Positions 1,348 to 6,530 of a stretch of DNA of 6,547 nt are shown here, piece after piece (position 1 is the first letter of the stretch; the number at the start of each line of letters is the position of its first letter). The DNA is from an uncultured Nitrososphaera sp. GTDB taxonomy: Archaea; Thermoproteota; Nitrososphaeria; Nitrososphaerales; Nitrososphaeraceae. A program made the translations under genes and the position numbers. Below the pieces are notes generated by a model, which was not told where the DNA came from, did no database searches, and saw only the letters and a list, made by a program, of their open reading frames with translations. The stretch lies in the NCBI GenBank assembly GCA_946480575.1, contig CAMLKF010000080.1, positions 1-6,547 of the forward strand, in the 5' to 3' direction.

Positions 1348-1950
1348 ATGTTCACTGGCATAGTGGAGGGCATGGCAAAGGTCAAGTCAGTCTCAAGAAG
1401 CAAAAAGGGAGCCGACATTGCCGTGAGCGTCAAGCTTGGCAGCAAGCTAGCAAAGGGCCTCAGGGTGGGCGACAGCGTGTGCGTCAGCGGCGCATGCCTC
1501 ACTGTGGCAAGGCTGTCAAAGAAAGGTGAGGCCGAGTTTGAGATGATCGCTGAGACTATCAGGCGGACAAACCTCAGCGCGGTCAAGCCAGGCGACATGG
1601 TCAACATCGAGAGGTCATTAAAAGTCGGCGACAGGCTCGAGGGACATTTTGTGCTGGGTCACGTGGATGGTACAGGGGTCATCAAGGACATTATCACGCT
1701 GCCGTCTGAGACAAAGCTGTGGATCAGGCTGGACGACGCGCTCTTGAAATCGGTGGTGCCAAAGGGCTCTATAGCAGTGGACGGCGTCAGCCTCACCTTG
1801 GTGGATGTCAAGAACGACCGCGTGTCTGTGTCGCTTATCCCCCATACCCTCAGCGTAACTACGTTGGGCCATAGGTCAAAAGGTGACAGAGTAAACATCG
1901 AAACTGACATCCTTGGCAAATACATCTTAAGCAACTTACCACCAAATTAG
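1348..1950 (+). CDS. ribE: Riboflavin synthase, bacterial-type two-barrel alpha subunit
   Basis: Catalyses the dismutation of two 6,7-dimethyl-8-ribityllumazine molecules to riboflavin and 5-amino-6-ribitylaminouracil, the last step of the pathway, in the cytoplasm. The 200-residue length is normal for the family. Two lumazine-binding barrels are visible. The first begins with the hallmark MFTGIVEG and carries GDSVCVSGACLTV (41-53). The inter-barrel signature GHFVLGHVDG is at 99-108. The second barrel has AVDGVSLTL (143-151) and LIPHTLSVTTLG (163-174), ending in NIETDILGKYI (183-193). The start at 1348 gives the invariant MFTG N-terminus; the ATG at 1344 is out of frame. No Shine-Dalgarno sequence is seen, which suits a leaderless message. 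This is the bacterial/eukaryotic enzyme class, not the lumazine-synthase-like RibC that methanogens use. It heads the riboflavin cluster, 59 nt before ribB. Confidence 0.96.
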   Translation: MFTGIVEGMAKVKSVSRSKKGADIAVSVKLGSKLAKGLRVGDSVCVSGACLTVARLSKKGEAEFEMIAETIRRTNLSAVKPGDMVNIERSLKVGDRLEGHFVLGHVDGTGVIKDIITLPSETKLWIRLDDALLKSVVPKGSIAVDGVSLTLVDVKNDRVSVSLIPHTLSVTTLGHRSKGDRVNIETDILGKYILSNLPPN

Positions 1951-1983: not shown

Positions 1984-2009
1984 AACAGTTAGAGAAGCTA
2001 GCTGTATTG

Positions 2010-2687
2010 ATGCTCAGCGAAGCAATAGCTGCCCTCAAGGCCGGCAGGTTCGTGCTTGTCTACGACGGCAAGGGAAGGGAAAATGAGATCGACATGGTAA
2101 TCGCGGCAGAATGCATAAAGCCTCATCATATTGCGACGATGAGGAAGGATGCCGGTGGGCTCGTCTGCCTTGCCGTAGCCAACGAGATAACTTCAAAGCT
2201 GGGGCTCGTTTACATGCACGATATGATAGCAGGCATGGGCAAGGTAAACCCAGTATTTTCAAAATTAACAGAAGGCAAAGCCGCATATGGCGACAAGCCT
2301 TCATTCTCCATATCAGTCAACCACCGAGACACGTACACCGGCATCACCGATAATGACCGGGCGCTGACGGTATTAAAGATGGCAGAGGTCTGCAAGAATA
2401 TTGACGCAGGCGGCATGGATGATTTTGCCAAGAATTTCAGGGCGCCAGGTCATGTGCCGATACTGATAGCTTCAAAGCGCCTGCTGCACGACCGCATGGG
2501 TCACACAGAATTGTGCGTGTACCTCGCCAAGCTTGCAGGACTGACACCGGCAGTTGTCATATGCGAAATGATGGACTCTACAACGCACAGGGCGCTCACT
2601 ATCGAAGCCGTCAGAGAATATGCCGGCAAATCTGGCATCTCGCTGGTTGATGCAAGCGAGCTCAAAGCTCACGCCAAGGTGGCATAG
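2010..2687 (+). CDS. ribB: 3,4-dihydroxy-2-butanone 4-phosphate synthase
   Basis: Converts ribulose 5-phosphate to 3,4-dihydroxy-2-butanone 4-phosphate plus formate, supplying the four-carbon unit used by the next gene's product. The 225 residues form a single DHBP synthase domain with no fused GTP cyclohydrolase II, as in archaea. Seen motifs are the substrate/metal loop YDGKGRENEIDMV (18-30), RKDAGGLVC (45-53), the archaeal-style TGITDNDRALT (110-120), PGHV with His148 and GHTE with His165, and a C-terminal CEMM (185-188). The overall pattern is close to the Methanocaldococcus enzyme. The loop is unusual: where that enzyme has acidic residues between the first Asp and the Arg, this protein has Gly-Lys-Gly. 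I chose ATG 2010 over the in-frame TTG 2007 just before it; the difference is one residue. No clear ribosome binding site precedes it, consistent with a short leader from the TATA at 1974. Confidence 0.95.
   Translation: MLSEAIAALKAGRFVLVYDGKGRENEIDMVIAAECIKPHHIATMRKDAGGLVCLAVANEITSKLGLVYMHDMIAGMGKVNPVFSKLTEGKAAYGDKPSFSISVNHRDTYTGITDNDRALTVLKMAEVCKNIDAGGMDDFAKNFRAPGHVPILIASKRLLHDRMGHTELCVYLAKLAGLTPAVVICEMMDSTTHRALTIEAVREYAGKSGISLVDASELKAHAKVA
2677..2681 (+). promoter_or_regulatory. Possible ribosome binding site for ribH
   Basis: AGGTG inside the last codons of ribB can pair with the CACCU of an archaeal 16S 3' end. It sits 13 nt before the TTG at 2695, a little far but compatible with that codon being the start. 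Translational coupling to the ribB stop is an alternative. Confidence 0.35.
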
Positions 2688-2694
2688 CCAGCAA

Positions 2695-3150
2695 TTGATA
2701 CAGATCGCAATAGTAGTTTCCGAGTTTAATAGCGAGATTACATTTCGGATGCTCGAGCAGGCAAGAGACCACGCCGCCAGGGTGAAAGCCAAGGTCAGCT
2801 ATGTGCTGTACGTGCCGGGCGCGTTTGACATGCCACTTGCAGTTGAAAAGTTGCTAAAAAAGAAAAATGTTAACGCGGTGGTCACGCTTGGCGCCGTGAT
2901 AAAGGGGGACACGCGCCACGATGACATAGTAGCTGAAAACGCGGCGCGGCTAATAGCCGATCTGTCGTTGAAGTATGGCAAGCCAGTGGCCCTTGGGATA
3001 ACAGGACCGGGCATGACAATAGACCAGGCAAAAGAACGGACCGAGCTTGTGCCTGTAAGGGCAGTTAACGCAGCAGCCAGCATGGTAGCAAGATTGAGAA
3101 AGTTGAAAAAGGCAATTGTCGGTGGGGAAACAGTGGTAATAAATAAATGA
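2695..3150 (+). CDS. ribH: 6,7-dimethyl-8-ribityllumazine synthase
   Basis: Condenses 5-amino-6-ribitylaminouracil with the RibB product to give lumazine, the substrate of riboflavin synthase; family members form pentamers or 60-mer capsids. Visible motifs are the N-terminal strand IAIVVSEFN (4-12), PGAFDMPLAV (41-50), the active-site segment GDTRHDDIV (71-79) with the conserved His75, and the archaeal form GITGPGMT (101-108). The start needs care. An ATG-initiated frame would open at 2620 inside ribB and add 25 residues that look like out-of-phase ribB sequence. The TTG at 2695, 7 nt after the ribB stop, gives 151 residues beginning right at the first conserved strand, like other archaeal RibH proteins. 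The gene end overlaps the next start by 4 nt (ATGA). The sequence is typical archaeal RibH, unlike the bacterial-type riboflavin synthase upstream. Confidence 0.94.
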   Translation: MIQIAIVVSEFNSEITFRMLEQARDHAARVKAKVSYVLYVPGAFDMPLAVEKLLKKKNVNAVVTLGAVIKGDTRHDDIVAENAARLIADLSLKYGKPVALGITGPGMTIDQAKERTELVPVRAVNAAASMVARLRKLKKAIVGGETVVINK

Positions 3151-3899
3151 TAATACAGCTGACAATAATTAGGATAGAGGGCTACGGTCCTTGGACGCTT
3201 ACACTTGGAACTGACAGGGAGGCGCAGCTCCAGATGCTGCAGGCAAAGATATATCATGACGTCCAGAGACTATTTTCGGAAAAGAACTGCATCGTCTTCT
3301 TCAACAGGTTCGACGAGTATTTCGCGATAACAAATGGCCTTGACTCAGCCGACCACAAGGAGATACAGCAGGAGCTGGCAAGGGCGTACAAAGAGTTGAA
3401 GATATCGATGGCAGTTGGCATTGGCAGGACGGCGCTTGAGGCAAACCTGAACGCCTACAAGGCAAGAAAAGAGGAAAGGGTGCTTGACGGCGAAGCCAGA
3501 ATTTTCGGCGGCACCAGCAACGCGGACATCGCGCAGATAATGCATATTGACATCGATAGTTCCGCGAAGGTGGGGGACTACCTGTCGCCCTATGAAGTGA
3601 CGGCGCTTATGACGAAGATATACAGCAGGCTTGCTGAGGAGTTCCTCAAGCACGACTCGCTAACGTTCTTCCTTGGAGGCGACAACTTTATGGTGATTTC
3701 AAACGGCATGACAAAAGAACAGGCAGACGCGGTGATAAAGAAGGTAACGGCAGGAATTGACATCAAGCTCAATTGCGGGATAGGCATAGGCAGGAATGGC
3801 AGGAGGGCGGCCGAAGGCGCTACCAAAGCACTTGATACTATTAGGGACCTGCGCAAACAGGGCAAAATCCAACCAATATACGAGACACGATGTCTCTAG
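3147..3899 (+). CDS. GTP cyclohydrolase III
   Basis: Hydrolyses GTP to 2-amino-5-formylamino-6-ribosylamino-4(3H)-pyrimidinone 5'-phosphate without removing the formyl group, the archaeal entry step to riboflavin and the F420 chromophore. The 250 residues are close to the roughly 270 of the Methanocaldococcus enzyme (sometimes called ArfA). The hallmark YGPWTLT is near the N-terminus (13-19). The protein is an internal duplication of a nucleotidyl-cyclase/palm-like unit: FFNRFDEYFAITNG (51-64) matches FFLGGDNFMVISNG (174-187), and AVGIGR (89-94) with its following helix matches GIGIGR (211-216). The second copy carries the acidic HIDID (133-137), whereas the first has IRIEG at the matching place. 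The ATG overlaps the ribH stop (ATGA), implying coupled translation, and the 3' end overlaps the amidohydrolase start by 10 nt. Because this enzyme leaves the formyl group on, a deformylase is required afterwards. Confidence 0.93.
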   Translation: MIIQLTIIRIEGYGPWTLTLGTDREAQLQMLQAKIYHDVQRLFSEKNCIVFFNRFDEYFAITNGLDSADHKEIQQELARAYKELKISMAVGIGRTALEANLNAYKARKEERVLDGEARIFGGTSNADIAQIMHIDIDSSAKVGDYLSPYEVTALMTKIYSRLAEEFLKHDSLTFFLGGDNFMVISNGMTKEQADAVIKKVTAGIDIKLNCGIGIGRNGRRAAEGATKALDTIRDLRKQGKIQPIYETRCL

Positions 3900-5098
3900 C
3901 CATAACTGACGCCAGCCTGCTTTTGGGTAGAGAGCTCGATTACGTCGAGCGTGGCTACATCGAAATTGAAAACGGCAGGATCAAGAGCGCAGCAGCTGGC
4001 AGCTATGAAGGTACCGGCAAAAAGCTAGATGCAAAAGGGTTCTTGGTAATTCCCGGTTTTATCAATGCGCACACGCACATCGCAGACTCTATAGGAAAAG
4101 ACATTGCTGCCGGCCACAGGCTTGACGCAAGGGTGCACCCGGTATTTGGGGCGAAAAAGAAAATTCTGGAAAGGAGCAGCCCCGATTACCTCAAGGCGTT
4201 CATCAAAAATTCTGCGGTGTCCATGATGAAAAAAGGCACGGTGGCCTTTGCGGATTTTCGCGAGGGCGGGCCGGCAGGTCTCAGGCTGCTGAGGGAAGCA
4301 CTTGCTGATTTGCCGATAAAATACGTGGCGCTTGGCAGGACCAATTATTATTACAGTAATAGCCCTAAAGAAGACGATGATGGCAAGCTGCCGGCTGAAG
4401 CGCTACAGGAGGCCAAAGAGGTGCTAGAGCTTGCAGACGGGCTTGGAATCAGCGGCGCCAATGAAAACACTGACGCGGCCCTTGAGCAATACAGGCAGCT
4501 TGCTGCTACGAGAAAATTGCTGGCGATACATGCCGCCGAGTCAAAAGAGACAGTCGAGTTTTCCAAAGCACGCTCTGGCAAAAGTGAAGTGGACAGGATA
4601 ATGGAGCACATGAAGCCTGATTTCGTAGTGCACATGACAAACGCGACAGACAGCGAAATATCCCTTATCGCAAAAAGTGGAACAGGCATTGTAGTCTGTC
4701 CGAGGGCAAACGGCGTGCTTGGCGCAGGCATTCCACGCGTTGCCCAGATGCTCCGGCAGGGCTGCCTTGTGGCTGCAGGCACTGACAATGTGATGCTGAA
4801 CTCGCCTGACATTCTGAGGGAGCTAGACTATGTCTGGAAAGTGTCAAGAGCAGCCGAGGGCAGAATGATCGAAGCGCGGGAGCTGCTGAAAATGGCAACT
4901 ATCAATGCCGCGACGATTTTGCGGCTAAACTCTGGCTGCATAGAACAGGGGCGCGCAGCAGACTTGATATTTGTGGACAAAAGGCACGCCGATCTTTATC
5001 CGATGCATGACCCATACGCTGCTGTAGTTCACAGGCTGAGCCAGAGTTCGATAAAGGCAATCATGATCGACGGGCGCATCGTGGAGGCGATAAATTGA
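3890..5098 (+). CDS. COG0402-type metal-dependent amidohydrolase/deaminase, candidate riboflavin-pathway enzyme
   Basis: A 402-residue amidohydrolase-superfamily protein (TIM barrel flanked by a small beta domain) of the cytosine/guanine/S-adenosylhomocysteine deaminase group. The metal and catalytic residues can be read off: HTH at 61-63 (PGFINAHTH), His214 with Glu217 in HAAE, His248 in VVHMT and Asp299 in GTDN. HxxE is the proton-shuttling signature typical of nucleobase deaminases in this superfamily. The C-terminal domain has the usual ATINAATIL (336-344) and GCIEQGRAADLIFVD (349-363). The start at 3890 lies 10 nt inside the cyclohydrolase III gene, and the stop overlaps the reductase start by 4 nt, so it is translationally embedded in the riboflavin operon between steps 1 and 3. 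The bacterial pathway deaminates with a RibD zinc domain, which is missing here, and the archaeal deformylase ArfB is a different fold (creatininase). I infer that this enzyme is the pathway deaminase or, less likely, the deformylase. An unrelated purine or SAH-type deaminase cannot be excluded. The fold and family are secure; the substrate is not. Confidence 0.88.
   Translation: MSLAITDASLLLGRELDYVERGYIEIENGRIKSAAAGSYEGTGKKLDAKGFLVIPGFINAHTHIADSIGKDIAAGHRLDARVHPVFGAKKKILERSSPDYLKAFIKNSAVSMMKKGTVAFADFREGGPAGLRLLREALADLPIKYVALGRTNYYYSNSPKEDDDGKLPAEALQEAKEVLELADGLGISGANENTDAALEQYRQLAATRKLLAIHAAESKETVEFSKARSGKSEVDRIMEHMKPDFVVHMTNATDSEISLIAKSGTGIVVCPRANGVLGAGIPRVAQMLRQGCLVAAGTDNVMLNSPDILRELDYVWKVSRAAEGRMIEARELLKMATINAATILRLNSGCIEQGRAADLIFVDKRHADLYPMHDPYAAVVHRLSQSSIKAIMIDGRIVEAIN
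5083..5087 (+). promoter_or_regulatory. Strong Shine-Dalgarno site deciding the arfC TTG start
   Basis: GGAGG lies inside the last codons of the amidohydrolase gene and ends 7 nt before the TTG at 5095. This is the best ribosome binding site in the window. It explains how a non-ATG start overlapping the previous stop (TTGA) can be used. Confidence 0.7.
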
Positions 5099-5769
5099 AG
5101 GTAATAATCAATGGCGCAATGACAGTCGACGGCAAGATAGCTACTGCCAGCGGCGACTCAAAGATATCTTCAAAAGAGGATCTCATGCGCGTCCACAAGC
5201 TGCGGGCCTCTGTCAATGCAGTGGTAGTGGGCATCTCGACAATTCTGGCAGACGACCCCCGGCTCACTGTAAGGCTGGTGAAAGGGAGGAACCCTGCCAG
5301 AGTGATAGTGGACAGCAAGGGCAGAGTCCCGCTTGATTCGCAGGTGCTGAGCACAGCATCCAGGGTCAGGACAATAGTGGCAGTGACGGATCAGGCGCAA
5401 GAAGAAAAGGTACGCAGGATAAAGGAGGCAGGCGCACAAGTGCTCATTGTAAGAGAAGGAAAAAAAGGCCAGAGCGCTGCCGTGCCGCACGGCGTCAACC
5501 TTAAAGTGCTGTTCTCTGCTTTGGAGAGGATGGGGCTGAAGAAAATACTTGTCGAAGGTGGGGGCGAGCTCAACTGGTCGCTCCTGCGTCTTGGGCTGGT
5601 GGACGAGTTAATAGTGACCATGGCGCCGAAAATAGCTGGCGGTAGGCTGGCTACTACGCTTGTCGAGGGCGATGGCTTTGACGAAATTGCGCAGGGGATA
5701 CGGCTGCAACTAAAGCAGGTGGAGAGAAAGAAGACGGGTGAGCTCGTGCTCTGCTACAGGCCGCTGTAA
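5095..5769 (+). CDS. arfC: 2,5-diamino-6-ribosylamino-4(3H)-pyrimidinone 5'-phosphate reductase
   Basis: Uses NADPH (or NADH) to reduce the ribosyl side chain of the diaminopyrimidine to ribityl, an early riboflavin/F420 step. The 224 residues correspond to the RibD_C reductase domain alone: AMTVDGKIA (8-16), an Arg-rich helix and VGISTILADDPRLT (45-58), NPARVIVD (66-73), and the nucleotide-binding VEGGGELNWSL (153-163) followed by VDELIVTMAPKIAGG (169-183). There is no N-terminal zinc deaminase domain as in bacterial RibD. In the archaeal and fungal order reduction comes before deamination, so a separate deaminase is needed, and the gene just upstream is a candidate. The TTG start overlaps the upstream stop by 4 nt and has a well-placed GGAGG. 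The first residues KVIINGAMT align with the start of the family, so no longer N-terminus is expected. It is the last gene of the cluster; 53 nt separate it from the next gene. Confidence 0.93.
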   Translation: MKVIINGAMTVDGKIATASGDSKISSKEDLMRVHKLRASVNAVVVGISTILADDPRLTVRLVKGRNPARVIVDSKGRVPLDSQVLSTASRVRTIVAVTDQAQEEKVRRIKEAGAQVLIVREGKKGQSAAVPHGVNLKVLFSALERMGLKKILVEGGGELNWSLLRLGLVDELIVTMAPKIAGGRLATTLVEGDGFDEIAQGIRLQLKQVERKKTGELVLCYRPL

Positions 5770-5822: not shown

Positions 5823-6530
5823 GTGAACAGCCTGGCCAAATTCCACTTAGGACAGGCAATAGACGGCTCGAAATTTGAAGTAGACCGCACATCGCTGACC
5901 AAGCACTCGATAATTCTTGGAGCCACTTGTTCCGGCAAGACGGTCCTGTCAAAAGTCATTGTAGAAGAAGCTGCATTGCAGGGCATACCCACTTTTGCCA
6001 TCGACCCCAAGGGGGACATCGGCAACCTAGCGTTCAAGTCTGTCAACTTTGATTTTTCAAAATGGTCGGGCAAGGAGGCCGACGCGCTGCTGAAAATCGG
6101 CAGGGCCAAATATGCCGCCAGCCTGCAAAAGACGTACAGCGACAAGGCTGCAGAGTTCGAGGTGGCGCCAAGCGCTGCGGCAAACTTTGCAAAGGAGGTC
6201 ACTATGCGCATATTCACTCCAAAATCGGTGGCTGGGCTTGCAGTCGGCATTTCGCCGGACCTGTCGGCACCGCAAGATTTTAGCAGGCTCTTGAGCGCAG
6301 ATATTGCGTCTGCCGCCGATCTCCTCGACCTGACCTCGTTCAACCTGCTGCGCCTTGCCGGCTATGGGGAGGGCGATAGAAAAGAGATAACCTTCGTTTC
6401 CACTATCCTCGAGAACGCATGGGAAAACGGCGAGAACCTGACGGTAAACGACCTCATCAGGAACATCGAAAACCCGTCGTTTAGCACCATCGGCATACAC
6501 GCACTCGCGCATGCTGGACGCAAGCTTTGA
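5823..6530 (+). CDS. HerA/DUF87-like P-loop ATPase, N-terminal part, apparently frameshifted
   Basis: The protein starts with a short beta segment (FHLGQAIDG, 7-15) and has a Walker A motif GATCSGKT (33-40) followed by the family hallmark FAIDPKGDIGNL (58-69), as in HerA-like/DUF87 ATP-binding proteins. These are ring ATPases related to FtsK and HerA that move or remodel DNA or other substrates; the cellular role here is unknown. The start is GTG at 5823, because an in-frame TAG at 5811-5813 blocks anything longer and no in-frame ATG precedes the Walker A. The 235 residues end shortly after NPSFSTIG (217-224), where family members continue for several hundred more residues with the arginine finger and Walker B. 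The last residues (about 226-235) look out of phase, and the +1 frame from about 6511 reads more naturally. The gene is therefore probably disrupted or carries a sequencing error. It is apparently unrelated to the riboflavin cluster. Confidence 0.8.
   Translation: MNSLAKFHLGQAIDGSKFEVDRTSLTKHSIILGATCSGKTVLSKVIVEEAALQGIPTFAIDPKGDIGNLAFKSVNFDFSKWSGKEADALLKIGRAKYAASLQKTYSDKAAEFEVAPSAAANFAKEVTMRIFTPKSVAGLAVGISPDLSAPQDFSRLLSADIASAADLLDLTSFNLLRLAGYGEGDRKEITFVSTILENAWENGENLTVNDLIRNIENPSFSTIGIHALAHAGRKL

Follow-up and report, generated by a model that had tools for sequence, protein, structure and literature searches.

An amidohydrolase family encoded beside arfA and arfC as a candidate for the deaminase of archaeal riboflavin synthesis

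The riboflavin operon on a 6,547-nucleotide (nt) contig of an uncultured Nitrososphaera sp. (CAMLKF010000080.1, assembly GCA_946480575.1; this whole stretch is referred to as the window) raises the question of which enzyme performs the deamination step of the archaeal pathway, for which the literature searched offers at best a prediction. One gene of the operon encodes an amidohydrolase and lies between arfA and arfC. Comparative evidence makes it very likely that this protein is the deaminase of 2,5-diamino-6-ribitylamino-4(3H)-pyrimidinone 5′-phosphate in archaeal riboflavin synthesis, and it probably has the same role in F420/FO synthesis. A preliminary description of the window had preferred the role of pathway deaminase, which is the one best supported by the gene linkage, the co-occurrence, and the lack of RibD N-terminal matches reported here. 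This work adds phylum-wide evidence for one candidate deaminase family, set apart from the deformylase candidate.

The gene order in the window is ribE-ribB-ribH-arfA-amidohydrolase-arfC, with all six genes on the same strand:

1348..1950, + strand: ribE, bacterial-type riboflavin synthase (TIGR00187 and NF006767 over cut-off)
2007..2687, + strand: ribB (PF00926, E value 3.4e-55; TIGR00506 over cut-off)
2620..3150, + strand: ribH, lumazine synthase, given as the mechanical open reading frame (ORF) (TIGR00114 over cut-off, match from residue 27)
3147..3899, + strand: arfA, GTP cyclohydrolase III (PF05165 [GCH_III], E value 1.1e-55)
3890..5098, + strand: amidohydrolase of NF005552/PRK07213, proposed archaeal diaminopyrimidine deaminase (NF005552 match, linkage, and co-occurrence)
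5095..5769, + strand: arfC, 2,5-diamino-6-ribosylamino-4(3H)-pyrimidinone 5′-phosphate reductase (TIGR01508, 210.1 bits; cut-off, 186.45)

The amidohydrolase ORF (402 amino acids, ATG start) lies where it had been described; it overlaps the end of arfA at 3899 by 10 nt and the TTG start of arfC at 5095 by 4 nt, and neither a creatininase-fold protein (ArfB) nor a RibD deaminase domain was found in a Pfam/NCBIfam scan of the eight long gene-like ORFs of the window. The arfC product also matched the Pfam RibD_C domain, the arfA product scored 193 bits on NF002587 (under its cut-off of 306), and the true start of ribH is probably further 3′ than the ORF start at 2620. The order ribB-ribH-arfA-amidohydrolase-arfC was entire in three close relatives (loci L001, L002, and L004), and two loci limited by contig ends (L003 and L005) had the same order as far as the contigs extend; its retention across these five loci shows that the arrangement is more than chance.

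Whether such a neighborhood is confined to one genome was addressed by profile searches of 200 genomes of the phylum (Thermoproteota; completeness of 85 or more requested) for NF005552, ArfA, the creatininase fold, ArfC, and RibD, with linkage defined as hidden Markov model matches <200 bp apart on the same strand. The first NF005552 search (E value ≤1e-20) gave matches in 94 of the 200 genomes, and the 73 best, comprising matches of ~101 bits or more and two weaker ones in ArfA genomes, were taken into the linkage analysis. The core group comprised the 36 genomes with a match exceeding the NF005552 cut-off, many of which are close kin and so do not amount to 36 independent cases. Here the amidohydrolase gene adjoined arfC in all 36 and arfA in 33; of the other three, two had no ArfA detected and one carried arfA on another contig. 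A second group of more distant members (n = 22) was set at 119 bits, a threshold chosen after the scores were known, and here the gene adjoined arfA in 11 genomes and arfC in 4. Locus maps added two members adjoining ribH (L072 and L076) and two oriented divergently from ribB (L073 and L074), giving riboflavin linkage in 19 of 22, with G063, G116, and G136 unlinked. Twenty further members, found by profile or with a weak first score, were not next to arfA. Over all members, riboflavin-gene linkage was found in 55 of 78 and thus recurs across many genomes. The different layouts sit in different clades of the tree, so the association was retained or arose on several occasions. At L094 (G071, core group) a second arfA adjoins a ribB on another contig, and at L086 (G108, no ArfA detected) a DUF447/flavin-reductase-like gene (4905-5546) immediately precedes the amidohydrolase-arfC pair.

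Co-occurrence with GTP cyclohydrolase III was determined using a family profile built from 24 members, most of them near arfA or arfC, so the result is not fully independent of linkage. With a threshold of 190 bits, chosen after the scores were known (gap, 170 to 194), the family was present in 76 of the 200 genomes and ArfA was over cut-off in 75, with 73 genomes holding both (Fisher P value, 3e-48, kinship ignored). The association across archaeal genomes that the preliminary description had proposed to look for was thus strongly positive. Each of the three genomes with the family and no detected ArfA (G024, G102, and G108) has the gene beside arfC, and these genomes may be incomplete or use another first enzyme. 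ArfA without a family match of >190 bits was seen in G140 (two partial matches; the whole ORF scored 200) and G076 (149 bits). Fifteen ArfA genomes had no match in the first search, and the possibility that another deaminase replaces the family in them was dropped, as each of the 15 proved to have a member by profile and none of them had contributed to the 24 profile sequences. Five genomes (G146, G122, G112, G086, and G017) scored <119 bits in the first search and had members by profile. Outside the phylum set, NF005552 matched in Methanocaldococcus jannaschii, Haloferax volcanii, and Methanosarcina acetivorans at E values of ≤1e-80; M. jannaschii matched ArfA, the creatininase fold, the ArfC model, and the family (E value ≤1e-80). 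M. acetivorans, a control, matched the ArfC model and the family and had no ArfA, creatininase, or RibA match.

ArfC matches of ≥100 bits were obtained in 88 genomes, 13 of which lacked the family at >190 bits, namely the ArfA-positive G076 and G140 and 11 ArfA-negative genomes. The eight of those 11 that were looked at carried a lone ArfC-like reductase (L165 to L172) with neither ArfA nor the family at >190 bits, and single-sequence searches of the stretch fetched around each of these eight genes gave no match to the five remaining window genes. GTP cyclohydrolase II (RibA) had no match in the 200 genomes; a genome with RibA plus the family, as a test against a deformylase role, is therefore not to be had among them. 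G024, G102, and G108 might have stood in for such a genome, but they may simply lack part of their sequence or use another first enzyme.

No RibD N-terminal deaminase match was found in any of the 75 ArfA genomes (other cytidine-deaminase-fold families were not searched), and the RibD matches in these genomes span the reductase part only, which leaves the deaminase slot otherwise empty. A prediction that appears to concern this slot has been made previously. In Table 6 of PMC8305020 the rows follow the pathway, with arfA, the arfB candidate HVO_1235, arfC, HVO_2483 with MJ0699, and a gap for the phosphatase; the fourth row is entered as a "prediction" citing Rodionova 2017. Coming after arfC and before the missing phosphatase, this row would correspond to the deaminase step. 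MJ0699 and HVO_2483 are probably orthologous to the window amidohydrolase, judging by the strong NF005552 matches in both species, and priority for predicting the deaminase family probably lies with the 2017 work. The view that the archaeal deaminase has long been unassigned thus needs qualifying, since an entry for it exists in PMC8305020, although it is still a prediction only: in the open-licence literature searched, PMC8305020 alone mentions MJ0699 and no assay of an archaeal deaminase candidate was found.

Could the amidohydrolase instead fill the preceding slot? As a deformylase replacing ArfB, it would act on the ArfA product with release of formate, and the deaminase would still have to be found. 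The frequent direct contact with arfA in both linkage groups fits such a role, as does the inclusion of amide hydrolases in the amidohydrolase superfamily. However, the deaminase slot would then stay empty in all 75 ArfA genomes, and a creatininase-fold protein was present in 73 of them. The exceptions were G124 and G001; the latter, the nearest relative searched, is a 1.1-Mb metagenome-assembled genome, and 59 of the 61 genomes of its family have a creatininase-fold gene. M. jannaschii, in which ArfB was reportedly characterized by Grochowski in 2009, also has a strong member of the amidohydrolase family. A creatininase-fold gene lay beside arfA at nine of ten loci fetched from the 15 ArfA genomes with the family gene elsewhere, and beside the amidohydrolase cluster at L072, L076, and L089 (order amidohydrolase-arfC-creatininase, one strand), so that at least 12 of the 46 loci mapped had it beside arfA or the amidohydrolase gene. 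The ArfB model NF033501 matches creatininase-fold proteins and shares matches with PF02633; the amidohydrolase had no PF02633 match, and NF033501 was not among the best 25 of its 60 NCBIfam matches. As the two proteins are often together, neither appears to replace the other, and the presence of creatininase-fold proteins with ArfA gives the deformylase step a candidate of its own. Judged by this co-existence, that slot is probably filled by these proteins, and the earlier statement that ArfB is missing holds for the window and not for the genomes. The characterized deformylase BrbF belongs to the creatininase type as well (PMC9478397). At eight loci (L077, L078, L079, L081, L082, L083, L085, and L093) the creatininase-arfA-arfC-ribB group has a conserved histone-deacetylase-like neighbor, which matched PF00850 in the scan of L078.

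Several points weigh against this division of roles. RibD is named for archaea in PMC9478397 and Rib2 in PMC8256712, although the counts in the 75 ArfA genomes speak against a RibD-type domain. The 11 creatininase-fold proteins tested reached 34 to 59 bits with the ArfB model, whose cut-off is 180, and fit the mycofactocin MftE model better (106 to 158 bits; cut-off, 172), which would also favor a deformylase role for the amidohydrolase. Creatininase-fold genes are, moreover, common without ArfA too (149 of the 200 genomes in all). On balance, the deformylase role appears quite unlikely for the amidohydrolase, and the earlier preference for deaminase over deformylase stands in the sense that the former is favored and the latter disfavored.

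The assignment as a deaminase also agrees with the family and fold of the protein. Pfam matched the amidohydrolase to Amidohydro_1 (E value, 1.1e-47) and Amidohydro_3 and to no other family, and the scan placed no RibD N-terminal deaminase domain in it. On NF005552 it scored 332.9 bits against the equivalog cut-off of 294 (residues 5 to 393 on positions 4 to 377 of a 382-position model), and the runner-up NCBIfam model, also named "chlorohydrolase," scored 134 bits. NF005552 was likewise the best model for ten divergent members from other lineages (122 to 213 bits, under the cut-off; runner-up, ≤84). A homologue search scored 8,000 candidates, and among the best 120 of its 1,456 matches the relatives at 72 to 80% identity were named Nitrososphaera or Nitrososphaeraceae, which places the window in that group of ammonia-oxidizing archaea. 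An AlphaFold 2 model was obtained with a pLDDT of 93.1; among the structures listed, its nearest folds were deaminases of adenosine/S-adenosylhomocysteine (SAH), of isocytosine, and of guanine, together with triazine hydrolases, and the nearest solved structure by sequence profile was TM0936. The closest solved structures thus belong to COG0402-type nucleobase/nucleoside deaminases. The predicted active-site and family-diagnostic codons are as follows:

4070..4078, + strand: H61-T62-H63, HxH putative metal ligands (H61 and H63 invariant in 78/78 family sequences and 13/13 paralogues)
4154..4156, + strand: K89, family diagnostic (K in 78/78 family sequences, E in 13/13 paralogues)
4529..4540, + strand: H214-x-x-E217, putative metal ligand and catalytic Glu (invariant in 78/78 and 13/13)
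4631..4633, + strand: H248, putative active site (invariant in 78/78 and 13/13)
4703..4705, + strand: R272, family-diagnostic basic residue (R in 76/78 family sequences, 0/13 paralogues)
4784..4789, + strand: D299, putative metal/catalytic Asp, and N300 (D299 invariant in both sets)

H61, H63, H214, E217, H248, and D299 were all found where the preliminary description had placed them. The counts cover 78 sequences of >300 amino acids, leaving out L025 (a 224-amino-acid fragment), L131 (49 bits), and the window itself and taking in L128 (G076), whose tree placement is unsure; the quick tree was built from 72 of 92 rows after manual thinning. The catalytic residues are as in known nucleobase deaminases, and the HxH, HxxE, H, D pattern agrees with the residues listed for CodA in PMC6186785.

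A rival reading would give the protein a different substrate, namely a free base, a nucleoside, or SAH (cytosine, guanine, SAH/methylthioadenosine [MTA], or 5′-deoxyadenosine) or a chlorinated ring, with the place in the operon reflecting co-regulation only. In its favor are TM0936 as the closest solved structure in the profile search, the similarity in fold to triazine hydrolases, the name "cytosine/adenosine deaminase-related" given to relatives, and the name "chlorohydrolase" of the NCBIfam model itself. Nevertheless, archaeal COG0402-type paralogues form a separate clade (SH-aLRT, 100) and occur alongside the family within one genome (e.g., G088, G082, G118, and G172), and the six paralogues scanned fit 5′-deoxyadenosine deaminase and N-ethylammeline models far better, yet below cut-offs. 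Positions 66, 89, 125, 272, 300, and 382 separate the family from the paralogues, in which M, E, and G/S replace D66, K89, and N300 of the family; at the last, a specificity position beside D299, N occurred in 78/78 family sequences and G or S in the 13 paralogues. With the near-complete co-occurrence with ArfA, such a substrate is very unlikely.

For the deaminase proposed here, the operon, family, fold, invariant residues, co-occurrence with ArfA, and lack of RibD N-terminal matches are results of the analysis, and the substrate and metal are those that we infer. The protein would be an amidohydrolase with a TIM barrel, binding a single metal ion through H61, H63, H214, and D299. The metal would activate water, with E217 and H248 shuttling protons, and the 2-amino group of the ArfC product would be swapped for oxygen with release of ammonia, yielding 5-amino-6-ribitylamino-2,4-pyrimidinedione 5′-phosphate. 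Family-specific residues such as K89, R272, N300, and R382 may recognize the phosphate and ribityl moieties. The enzyme could also be a deaminase acting on the ribosyl compound before ArfC, which is the bacterial order, or on a dephosphorylated compound; gene neighbors are silent on order, and some members adjoin arfA and not arfC. Reduction, though, is given as preceding deamination in archaea (PMC13028884; PMC8256712, citing Graupner 2002), and the conserved basic residues K89, R272, and R382 would fit a phosphate, a point that is only suggestive. Either variant is judged unlikely, and the ribityl phosphate remains the preferred substrate.

The riboflavin operon is flanked in the window by genes for an HtrA-like serine protease (2-901, − strand) and a HerA-like ATPase (5823-6530, + strand). 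Whereas the window has a bacterial-type RibE, at 14 other loci (L055, L059, L061 to L064, L066 to L069, L072 to L074, and L076) a second lumazine-synthase-like protein is encoded between ribB and ribH; it is probably an archaeal-type RibC.

In sponge-associated and free-living ammonia-oxidizing archaea, a COG0402 gene and a creatininase-fold gene have been read as creatinine degradation (PMC7848895). If their COG0402 protein belongs to the amidohydrolase family, both genes could instead serve riboflavin synthesis. It seems reasonably likely, as the broader reading, that the family is the riboflavin and F420 deaminase across ArfA-using archaea, an independent invention in a second fold, and that the COG0402 "cytosine deaminase" and the creatininase-fold gene of ammonia-oxidizing archaea are the riboflavin deaminase and deformylase. 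If true, this would correct "chlorohydrolase" and "cytosine deaminase" annotations as well as the creatinine reading in PMC7848895. The work supplies residues for mutation and proteins from an intact operon.

Several known systems resemble the one proposed. The RibD and Rib2 deaminase domains of bacteria and fungi bring about the same overall conversion (PMC8256712) and have the cytidine-deaminase fold, to which the amidohydrolase fold that archaea would use for this step is unrelated. The ArfB (NF033501) and BrbF deformylases serve the neighboring step of the same pathway and are creatininase-type proteins of a different family, with genes beside or apart from the amidohydrolase gene. TM0936 (1p1m and 2plm), which we take to be an SAH/MTA deaminase, and the Pseudomonas aeruginosa adenosine deaminase (4gbd and 4dyk) were among the best profile and structure matches; their substrates are nucleosides, unlike the proposed pyrimidine phosphate. 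The isocytosine/8-oxoguanine deaminases (Vcz, PDB 7ww2 and 8is4) share ~22% identity with the amidohydrolase and act on free bases, and they have Gly after the metal Asp where the family has Asn. Vcz acts on a 2-amino-4-pyrimidinone by removing its 2-amino group, the same ring chemistry as proposed here. MJ0699 and HVO_2483 have been predicted for what would be the same step, in species that both carry an NF005552 match at an E value of ≤1e-80. The amidohydrolase is itself a full-length match to NF005552/PRK07213 over its equivalog cut-off; no support was found here for the name of that model, chlorohydrolase, and neighborhood and co-occurrence point to riboflavin synthesis.
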